From Spirochaetaceae bacterium (lineage in GTDB: Bacteria; Spirochaetota; Spirochaetia; Treponematales; Rectinemataceae), in the NCBI GenBank assembly GCA_025355995.1, contig JANXYQ010000022.1, positions 1 to 39,076 of the forward strand: DNA of 39,076 nucleotides, read 5' to 3'. Made by a program: the position numbers and the translations under genes. The notes beneath the pieces were generated by a model, which saw only the letters and a program-made list of their open reading frames with translations, was not told the DNA's origin and made no database searches. Positions 23,189 through 26,293 of the stretch are shown piece after piece (position 1 is the first letter of the stretch; every line of letters starts with the position of its first letter).

Positions 23189-23938
23189 TCAGAGCAAATG
23201 ACCCATCTTTTCCCGCTTGACCGCGAGGTATCCCTCGTCGTGGGCGTTGGGCGCGATTACCAGCGGGATGCGGCCTTCGACCGCGACTCCCTCGGCCCGG
23301 AGCTTGGTTATCTTGTCGGGGTTGTTCGTGAGCAGCCGCAGGGACTCGATCTTGAGCAGGCCCAGGATTTTGGCGGCCACCTTGTAGTCCCTCGCCTCGT
23401 CGGGGAAGCCGAGGTAGAGGTTGGCCTCGACCGTGTCCAGCCCCAGCTCCTGGAGTCTGTAAGCCTTGATTTTATTGAGCAGGCCGATGCCCCGGCCCTC
23501 CTGCTTGAGGTATACGACCGCTCCGCATTCCTGCGTCGCCACGAAGCGCAGGGAGTCCTCGAGCTGGTCGCGGCAGTCGCAGCGCAGCGAGCCGAGGACG
23601 TCTCCCGTATGGCACTCGGAATGGACCCGGACCGGGACGTCCCTCTTTCCCGCCACGTCCCCGTGGACCATGGCGGTATGCTCCTTGTCCTCCCGCGCGT
23701 CGTAGAAGCCGTAGAGCTCGAAGGAGCCGAAGCGGGACGGCAGGTGGGCGTGCGCCACGAGCTGAACGCAGAAATCCTCGTCGGCGCAATATTTGCCCGC
23801 GCCCGCGCAATAATGCTCGTCGGTCGAATAATCGGGGACGCCGGAAAGCTTGGCCTTCAGCTCGGCGAGTTCGATGGTCTTGCCGCAATCCTCGGTCAGG
23901 CATTCTCTCGTGAGTTTCGCCGTCGATGCTTCATCCAT
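23189..23938 (-). CDS. ribA: GTP cyclohydrolase II with Cys-rich N-terminal extension
   Basis: First enzyme of riboflavin synthesis; opens GTP to the 2,5-diamino-6-ribosylamino-pyrimidinone phosphate. The catalytic core has the zinc cysteines Cys109, Cys120 and Cys122 in HSECHTGDVLGSLRCDCRDQL, the block YLKQEGRGIGL, and LLTNNPDKI. The protein is 249 residues against about 200 for stand-alone RibA. The extra 60 N-terminal residues hold five cysteines (13, 18, 44, 51, 57), which could bind another metal. No RibB domain is attached and no other rib gene is nearby. ATG at 23938 follows AAAGGGG at about 9 nt. Confidence 0.92.
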   Translation of the reverse strand: MDEASTAKLTRECLTEDCGKTIELAELKAKLSGVPDYSTDEHYCAGAGKYCADEDFCVQLVAHAHLPSRFGSFELYGFYDAREDKEHTAMVHGDVAGKRDVPVRVHSECHTGDVLGSLRCDCRDQLEDSLRFVATQECGAVVYLKQEGRGIGLLNKIKAYRLQELGLDTVEANLYLGFPDEARDYKVAAKILGLLKIESLRLLTNNPDKITKLRAEGVAVEGRIPLVIAPNAHDEGYLAVKREKMGHLL

Positions 23939-24023
23939 GTATATATTCCCCTTTCCGACTGCTTTAAGGTACTACTCCGGCCTTTACGAGGGAAGCCGCC
24001 GCCCCCCTTAATTACCCGGCCTC

Positions 24024-24052
24024 TTGACTCGGGGGGGGCGCGCGTGCATAAT
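24024..24052 (+). promoter_or_regulatory. Near-consensus promoter of the 30-residue protein gene
   Basis: TTGACT (24024-24029), a 17-nt spacer including eight consecutive G, and CATAAT (24047-24052). The leader to the GTG at 24082 is about 22 nt. Confidence 0.75.
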
Positions 24053-24081
24053 CTCAAATCGCTACGTGAAGGAGAGCTACA

Positions 24082-24174
24082 GTGCCCTGTGGTAGGAAGC
24101 GAAAGCTCAAGAAGATAGCGACGCATAAGCGCAAGAAGAAGAAGAGAAGAAACAGACACAAGACGAGAGCCTAA
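24082..24174 (+). CDS. 30-residue AURKAIP1/COX24-like basic protein
   Basis: A very short gene: GTG start after GAAGGAGAGCTACA, TAA stop at 24172-24174. The product begins MPCGRKRKLKKIATHKRKKK and continues with Lys, Arg, Asn and His to a final RA. The pattern MPxGRKRK...KIxTHKRKKR..RNRHK is that of small bacterial proteins annotated as AURKAIP1/COX24-domain, whose mitochondrial relative (mS38) is a small-subunit ribosomal protein. It has its own near-consensus promoter and a good terminator, so it is expressed as a separate unit. I infer a ribosome-associated peptide. It is below usual gene-length cut-offs and easy to miss. Confidence 0.85.
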   Translation: MPCGRKRKLKKIATHKRKKKKRRNRHKTRA

Positions 24175-24202
24175 AGTCGCTATCCTTATAGGCTCGGACG
24201 AG

Positions 24203-24233
24203 GCCGCTTCCCCACGGAAGCGGCTTCTTTTTT
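24203..24233 (+). terminator. Intrinsic terminator after the 30-residue protein gene
   Basis: Perfect 9-bp stem GCCGCTTCC/GGAAGCGGC with loop CCAC, followed by TTCTTTTTT. Confidence 0.92.
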
Positions 24234-24285
24234 GGCCCTTCGCCGTCCCGGCCCGATGCCCGTCCCATCGGTTCCGATTTAATAC

Positions 24286-24314
24286 TTGTTTCATCGGGGT
24301 GAATCAGCTACCAT
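24286..24314 (+). promoter_or_regulatory. Promoter of the 656-residue protein gene, leaderless arrangement
   Basis: TTGTTT (24286-24291), a 17-nt spacer, then TACCAT (24309-24314), which ends 8 nt before the ATG at 24323. No ribosome site. Confidence 0.45.
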
Positions 24315-24322
24315 CATCAGCC

Positions 24323-26293
24323 ATGGGTCGCGGCATCGACGTCTACCAGCTCATACGGTCATTCGCGCATCGCAACAACCTCAGCGAGCTCGATTACAAG
24401 ACCTTCGCCCAAGCCATACAGCGGCAGGCTCGCCTTTCCGACCAGTCCGAGCCCGTGTTCCGCGACCTCTCCCTCAACCCCGACACCGTCCTCGTCCCGC
24501 GGCTTTTCCTGCTTTCCAAGGAAAAGAAGCTGGTCCTCCAGAGCGTCGGCAATGAGATCCGATCCATCGTCCTGCCCGAATACTTCGCCGAGGCCTTTTT
24601 CCTGGAATACAGGCGCATGGACGAGAGCCCGGACGTACCCTTCCCCGACGAGGACTCCCTGAAGATCGCGGTGCCCGGCGACTGGATCCAGAGCATCGCC
24701 GTCGATACCGACCTCGGCACCGTCTCCGACGAGGCGGGCGAGGGCCAGGATAAGGCCTCGGAGAGGCGCGTCCCCCTCTACCGCGTCACCTTCCCCGACG
24801 GAGTGAAGCCTCTCGTCGTCCCCTCGTCCTTCGTCCCCGAGAAGCTCCTCGAGTACGCCGTCCTCAAGCTCAGGCAGTACCTGCGCAAGGGCGCCAATAA
24901 AGAATACATGTACAACAAGCTGGTCAACGCCTTCCCGGGCAAGGAAGGCCAGCTCAAGGACGCCATGAGCGCCGTCCTCACGAGGCCCCTGGAGGCGGTG
25001 AAGGGAATCGTCCGCTCCGACTCGGACTTTACCTATCCCTTCTGGGCCTACTTCGTCAGCGCGATCAAGAAGGACCTCGACAAGAAGAAGGACAAGACTC
25101 CGGAGGATTGGTCATATCACCAGTCGGCGATACTCTGCGAATTCTTCGTCAACCATTATAAGGGCAAGGCGCAGCGGCTCCAGGACCTGGAGGCGGCGAT
25201 GAAGTCCCTCGACCTGAGCATCCGCAAGCCGCCCTATCATTTCACCCTCGACGAGATCCTCGCATTCCGCGACGCGAAGGGAGCCTCCGTGCTGGGCAAG
25301 TTCGGCAAGGAGGAGCTCGAGGCGCGGATAAGGGATAAGAGCACCAAGGCCGAGGACGGCGCATTGCCGGAGTTCCTCCTCGTCTCTACGAGCGGCAGGC
25401 GCGCCTTCGTCGCCAAGGACAAGGCCCTCCTCCTCGCGGTCAGGCTCATCTCCGAGGCCCGCTCCGAGCTCCGATCCAGGCTGCTGGACCAATGGAAGCG
25501 CCTGCTCGAGGACTTCCGCTCGAACGCGGCGATGGAGAACGACGATGCCTTCCTCTCCGAGCTCGTCGCCCAGGTCGAGACCCGCTTTCCCCTGCTAGAC
25601 GCCCTCATACGCGACCGCCTCCTCCCACTCGTCCGCGACGAGGCCGCGGCCCGGGGGGACCTGCCTCCCGACGTCGGCCGGATGTTCTACAAGGACGACC
25701 TCGTGCCCCTCGACGAGCTCCTCGAGCTGTCCCGCAGGTCCCTCCTTGTCGACGCCAAGATGCTGATGCCTTTCTGGTACTCGGTCCCGATACTCTCCTG
25801 GCTCGCCCGCCTCGTGCACCGCATCACCCAGGGCCGCGCCGAAAGGGCGGCCGAGAGGTCCCAGGCCGCGCGGGAGGCCCTCGAGGAGGCGCAGAGCAAG
25901 GGCAGGGCGGCGAAGGGCCATCGGGGCCAGACCGCGAAGGAAAGGCGGGCGGAGTTCGAGGCCGCTGCGAATCGCATCGCCACCGAACTCCTGCCCCAGG
26001 GCTACGGCCTCGAGGAATACCTCCGGGACCTCGAGGGCCGCTGGAATACCCTCTTGAATCCCGAGGCCAAGCGGAACCTCACCTACGACGTCGATTGCCT
26101 CGCGCGCGACTACCTTCGCGGCGTCCTCCGGAATATGGGAACCAGCACCTTCACCACCGAACGGGTAAAGAATCTCGGCTCGAGCCTCGCCGATTCGCCG
26201 ACCTTGCTGAAGATCAAGAATCACCAGGCCCTCGAGCTATATATACAGCTGTATATGGTCAAGGTCCTCGGAGCGAGGATTGAGAACGAATAA
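24323..26293 (+). CDS. Large protein of unknown function
   Basis: A 656-residue protein I do not recognise. It lacks a signal peptide and has no clear nucleotide-binding or catalytic motif. It is highly charged and mostly helical. One stretch (about 490-512, MPFWYSVPILSWLARLVHRI) is hydrophobic and amphipathic. Next comes a long Ala/Arg/Glu/Gln/Lys-rich helix (about 515-560) that may be a coiled coil. The C-terminal part has a YDVDCLARDYLRGVLRNM segment. The frame also allows GTG at 24299, but the ATG at 24323 lies 8 nt after a -10 element. It stands alone between the 30-residue gene and the buk operon. Probably a lineage-specific cytoplasmic protein. Confidence 0.7.
   Translation: MGRGIDVYQLIRSFAHRNNLSELDYKTFAQAIQRQARLSDQSEPVFRDLSLNPDTVLVPRLFLLSKEKKLVLQSVGNEIRSIVLPEYFAEAFFLEYRRMDESPDVPFPDEDSLKIAVPGDWIQSIAVDTDLGTVSDEAGEGQDKASERRVPLYRVTFPDGVKPLVVPSSFVPEKLLEYAVLKLRQYLRKGANKEYMYNKLVNAFPGKEGQLKDAMSAVLTRPLEAVKGIVRSDSDFTYPFWAYFVSAIKKDLDKKKDKTPEDWSYHQSAILCEFFVNHYKGKAQRLQDLEAAMKSLDLSIRKPPYHFTLDEILAFRDAKGASVLGKFGKEELEARIRDKSTKAEDGALPEFLLVSTSGRRAFVAKDKALLLAVRLISEARSELRSRLLDQWKRLLEDFRSNAAMENDDAFLSELVAQVETRFPLLDALIRDRLLPLVRDEAAARGDLPPDVGRMFYKDDLVPLDELLELSRRSLLVDAKMLMPFWYSVPILSWLARLVHRITQGRAERAAERSQAAREALEEAQSKGRAAKGHRGQTAKERRAEFEAAANRIATELLPQGYGLEEYLRDLEGRWNTLLNPEAKRNLTYDVDCLARDYLRGVLRNMGTSTFTTERVKNLGSSLADSPTLLKIKNHQALELYIQLYMVKVLGARIENE

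Follow-up and report, generated by a model that had tools for sequence, protein, structure and literature searches.

The locus at positions 24024 to 24233 raises the question whether an open reading frame of only 30 codons, rich in lysine and arginine, is a gene at all and, if so, what it encodes and how the amount of its product may be set. It is situated in the window, i.e., the whole stretch of 39,076 nt analysed here, which corresponds to contig 56 in a spirochaete genome bin of 4.5 Mb. The frame extends from 24082 to 24174 on the forward strand, starts with GTG, ends with TAA and is translated as MPCGRKRKLKKIATHKRKKKKRRNRHKTRA, with Lys or Arg at 17 of 30 residues. A Shine-Dalgarno motif, AAGGAG (24069-24074, forward strand), is located 7 nt before the GTG, and AGGAG occurs upstream of the start in all of the first relatives (44 out of 44). 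The original prediction had described a 93-base gene with a GTG start and a good ribosome site, and both its coordinates and its description are correct.

The signals that bracket the gene are located on the same strand. The original prediction had proposed a near-consensus promoter, TTGACT-17-CATAAT, and exactly this sigma-70-type site (24024-24052) was the only one returned by a scan of positions 23500-24800, where 0.3 sites were expected. The -35 hexamer TTGACT (24024-24029) and the -10 hexamer CATAAT (24047-24052) give 10 of 12 matches to the consensus. Hexamers and 17-nt spacing recur in most of 30 relatives, in which a TTGAC-17-CATAAT-like promoter is found upstream of the gene despite the diverging DNA in between. 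The predicted intrinsic terminator is present at 24200-24233 as well, but it is not perfect, since the 12-pair stem (24200-24227, with a loop of 4 and followed by a T run) includes one G-U pair. Shuffled sequence yields 1.3 such terminator sites, and thus its presence alone is not significant; most relatives have a hairpin with a T run near this position. Upstream, the unit is flanked by a divergent GTP cyclohydrolase II gene (23189-23938, reverse strand), and downstream by a 664-codon gene (24299-26293, forward strand) without an assigned family, for which a Pfam search gave no match. Relatives in the family of the window (f1) and in another family of its order (f4) keep part of this neighbourhood, in which the gene is flanked by a CheY-like response regulator and, on the opposite side, by the 664-codon gene. 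The latter stays downstream of the small gene in 21 loci of two families.

Codon variation was analysed in 30 copies from f1 and f4. Variable positions comprise 26 of 28 third, 8 first and 2 second codon positions, and the 60 nt of downstream flank retain 29% identity in the same copies. dN is about 0.01-0.08, compared to a dS that beyond the genus is mostly near or above 1. The own genome contains a single copy, and the reading frame, whose conservation in related genomes had been named in the original prediction as a point to be checked, is present in 38 of 39 relatives. Hence the lineage has one conserved copy of this gene, which evolves under purifying selection, and the proposed Lys/Arg-rich 30-residue gene is real.

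The encoded peptide is not without known relatives. In a phmmer search against the PDB, the top match was bS22 of the Borrelia burgdorferi 30S subunit (8fmw_V, E 6.4e-10, 24 of 27 residues identical), followed by bS22 of Flavobacterium (7jil_5, E 2.4e-5); a profile search gave E values of 1.3e-13 and 8.8e-13, respectively. The highly basic peptide of about 30 aa carries the pattern MPxGxKRK-KI-THKRKK-NRHK, and M1, P2, K6, K11, H15, K16, K19, R25, and H26 are invariant in the bS22 alignment. In one chromosome of 910,724 bp the bS22 match begins at 867605, which is the published start of bb0822. The B. burgdorferi protein was found, unannotated and with a GUG start, in a 70S cryo-EM structure published in 2023, and its gene bb0822 was assigned to 867605-867697 (PMC10618245). 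In view of the two structural matches and this shared position, the window peptide is the already known bS22, encoded here by a further spirochaete. A chance Lys/Arg frame inside a regulatory or non-coding RNA locus, which would suit the very short frame, its GTG start, its absence from annotation models and an mRNA that is also structured, was rejected as having practically no probability, because the peptide is nearly identical to a protein observed in the ribosome (8fmw_V), its variation is concentrated at third positions and the protein is conserved across phyla, with homologues in 348 of 393 genomes of its own phylum.

The best explanation, which we regard as almost certain, is that the gene encodes the spirochaete ribosomal protein bS22, with ribosomal place and role assigned by homology, a role that we hold with high confidence. 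In Borrelia, bS22 contacts helices h2, h27, h44, and h45 of the 16S rRNA as well as H68 of the 23S rRNA (PMC10618245). By homology, the 30-residue basic helix would lie beneath the decoding centre, in a 16S pocket bounded by h2, h27, h44, and h45, where it would stiffen the top of h44, and would reach H68 to provide an extra intersubunit contact. Zero transposon insertions were reported for bb0822, and the side chains of bS22 fit the density well; it is also the sole Borrelia ribosomal protein that mass spectrometry did not identify (PMC10618245). The proposal of an overlooked ribosomal component in spirochaetes was therefore right in substance but is not new, as a 2023 paper already described bS22 as an unannotated, GUG-started spirochaete protein and gave its gene as bb0822 (PMC10618245).

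A role outside the ribosome as a free basic peptide, e.g., antimicrobial or nucleic-acid-binding, would be in line with the observation that the bS22 and bL37 peptides of Cutibacterium acnes inhibit bacterial growth and that the former also blocks in vitro translation (PMC10085706). Considering that the closest homologue was modelled in a ribosome map, and that a near-universal single copy in the phylum is more to be expected of a core ribosomal protein than of a weapon, we judge such a role to be very improbable.

The presence of bS22 has been proved for one spirochaete ribosome, and a 30-member profile shows that most sampled genomes of the phylum (348 of 393) encode it. Genomes without a match cluster in families f27, f35, f38, and f48 and include several near-complete genomes, so that lineage-specific loss or strong divergence is likely. 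The absence at the level of whole clades suggests that bS22 is dispensable in some lineages. The original prediction, according to which gene callers with length limits miss the gene, was right in that family models do not recognise it: Pfam and NCBIfam each gave zero matches for the window peptide at E values up to 10. NCBIfam model NF047430 (ribo_bS22) matches 2 of 30 relatives (best E 0.0083), the window peptide not being one of them. Among the matches listed, the MPCG-type DNA pattern occurs in many other phyla, including genomes labelled Omnitrophota, Neomarinimicrobiota, WOR-3, Cloacimonadota, Fibrimonadales, and PVC bacteria. Most of the copies in the spirochaete phylum and in these genomes escape curated family models. 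The labels of some records are doubtful. CALPIT020000020.1, labelled as a Streptomyces griseus MAG (L118), carries a bS22 protein identical to Bacteroidota copies behind a Bacteroidota-like leader and is probably mislabelled or contaminated. Likewise, the bS22 proteins of L212 (labelled Armatimonadetes) and L134 (Chlorobiota) are the same and the sequences upstream nearly so, and the assignment to different phyla is likely due to a wrong label.

The start codon is the first of two features that reach beyond the protein itself. Among the distinct bS22 copies of the Spirochaetia, 105 out of 113 start with GTG, 7 with ATG, and 1 with TTG, so that the published GUG start of Borrelia is one case of a class-wide rule. 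ATG is used in 24 of 27 parsed copies from other classes of the phylum and, among the matches listed, in all copies from other phyla (95/95). In 30 Spirochaetia genomes, GTG starts were found for control ribosomal genes in 0 of 27 (bL34), 1 of 29 (bL36), and 2 of 29 cases (uS13). Combining a strong Shine-Dalgarno motif with GUG would lower, and perhaps tune, the initiation of bS22.

The second feature is a predicted helix between the coding region and the 3'UTR. In the window, its arms are GATAGCGAC in codons 11-14 (24114-24122, forward strand) and GTCGCTATC in the 3'UTR (24176-24184, forward strand). The helix was first noticed by eye and tested afterwards on overlapping data with a free pairing register; since the species are related, the p-values of these tests are inexact. 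In 50 copies from f1 and f4, pairing of codons 9-17 with the 30 nt from the stop codon gave a mean z of -2.35 against shuffled 3'UTRs, with 92% of copies below -1. The signal peaks at these codons (codons 1-9, z -0.5; codons 17-25, z -0.4) and is not seen when the 5' leader takes the place of the 3'UTR. Outside f1 and f4, the same test gave -0.14 for the rest of the class, -0.40 for other classes, and -0.18 for a further set of genome contigs; family f13 shows a weaker mean z of -1.0. Own pairs of coding region and 3'UTR outdo pairs swapped within a family (0 of 5000 swaps in f1 and f4; p 0.04 in f13), and the synonymous codons in use pair better with the 3'UTR than most synonymous alternatives. 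Codon 12 is ATA in 45 of 50 copies; in the window, ATA accounts for 21% of the Ile codons. Whole-mRNA folding gave a mean of 7.3 expected pairs between the arms, compared to 1.3 with a shuffled 3'UTR.

Signs of matched changes on both arms include GCA-ACC together with GGGT..TGC (L023 and L027) and, in f13, GCC with GGC (L303 and L311) and GCT with AGC (L056). L187, a spirochaete record, combines GCA with TGC. Complementarity and matched changes suggest, at the level of sequence comparison, a conserved mRNA structure in f1 and f4. RNAalifold on a MAFFT alignment recovered the terminator and a 4-pair stem only; the 3'UTR aligns poorly, which explains the miss, and the helix consequently rests on duplex tests instead of a covariance model. 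The copy in the window ranks among the weaker cases, with 9 pairs and a z of -2.5; in its predicted best fold the coding arm pairs with the 5' leader and not with the 3'UTR. This pairing, predicted between TCGCTA in the leader (24059-24064, forward strand) and TAGCGA in the coding region of the window copy, was not found to be conserved in 50 relatives (mean z -0.4, not above shuffles).

What such a structure might do is less certain. One reading would be that the pairing of codons 9-17 with the 3'UTR serves mRNA stability or processing and has no regulatory link to bS22. With the helix located just upstream of the terminator and a signal found mainly in f1 and f4 and weakly in f13, we regard this as a serious candidate, its probability coming somewhat short of even. 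It accounts less well for a helix that involves one exact coding stretch, since a generic end structure needs no coding region, and for the advantage of own over swapped pairs within families.

As a weaker inference, helix and conserved GUG start may both tune the amount of bS22, and it is tempting to speculate that the conserved mRNA structure perhaps takes part in a feedback control of bS22. In such a feedback via its own mRNA, the GUG start, with infC/IF3 as precedent, would make initiation depend on the condition of the decoding region, which bS22 itself would shape, and in the order of the window the helix that links mid-coding sequence to the 3'UTR would act as a sensor or damper. We consider this elaborated form unlikely, though, if true, the regulatory element of a ribosomal protein would be located inside and after its gene and not in the leader. 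In the region 23940-24300, Rfam 15 including ribosomal-protein leaders gave a best E of 0.14, far below gathering scores, and in the literature searched nothing was found on autoregulation of bS22 or on bS22 in Treponema.

Mimicry of 16S h44 by the helix arms was tested and found no support: 6 of 8 positions of the coding arm match 1404-1411, but 9 places in the 16S rRNA match equally well, and in most species tested the 3' arm fits no better than at many 16S sites. The E. coli 16S rRNA was used for this comparison because the own bin has no detectable one. A search of the bin for a 16S rRNA gene found none, and missing 16S rRNA genes are common in metagenome-assembled genomes. While the bS22 protein was known already, the near-universal GUG start in the Spirochaetia and the mRNA element of f1 and f4 appear undescribed in the literature searched. 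If confirmed, the two would raise the question how the dose of bS22 is set.

Several known systems lend themselves to comparison. According to the literature, mitochondrial mS38 (AURKAIP1/COX24) occupies the same site as a bent basic helix, and bS22 is analogous to mS38 and eL41 (PMC10618245). In yeast, mS38 lends stability to h44 and builds a bridge between the subunits (PMC6582356). The family name AURKAIP1/COX24 put forward in the original prediction is one that databases give to related proteins; the relation is supported by the analogous, published position, and the direct link is weak by sequence. A profile search of the own genome with COX24_C (PF08213) gave no match (6 of 30 family members are matched, best E 3e-4), and a single mS38 chain, 8a22_BC, appeared in the profile search with an E of 0.99. 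Given this non-significant value, the relation rests on published structures and the shared binding site; shared descent, which has been argued structurally in the literature, is plausible. One mS38 chain has a KIxxHKxxKRRxxNR-like stretch in common with bS22, but mS38 is mitochondrial and usually longer. The bS22 of mycobacteria and Cutibacterium likewise forms a short basic helix, which occupies the same pocket of the 30S subunit (PMC10085706). The profile search found none of these proteins at E values up to 10, and they are related to the spirochaete bS22 by position and not by demonstrable sequence.

Closer relatives are found in Flavobacterium and Borrelia. bS22 of F. johnsoniae (7jil chain 5) has 30 aa and the pattern MPxGxKRK..K.ATHKRKK...NRHK as in the window peptide, with MPSG in place of MPCG. 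The Bacteroidota copies compared here start with AUG, usually without a Shine-Dalgarno motif, in contrast to the window with both GTG and this motif. In the Borreliaceae, neither the promoter type of the window nor the helix between coding region and 3'UTR was detected. bS22 of B. burgdorferi (bb0822, 8fmw chain V; PMC10618245) differs from the window copy by the substitutions A13S, K21R, and R23K and by its C-terminus, but shares with it the length, the GUG start, the unannotated status, and a spirochaete host.
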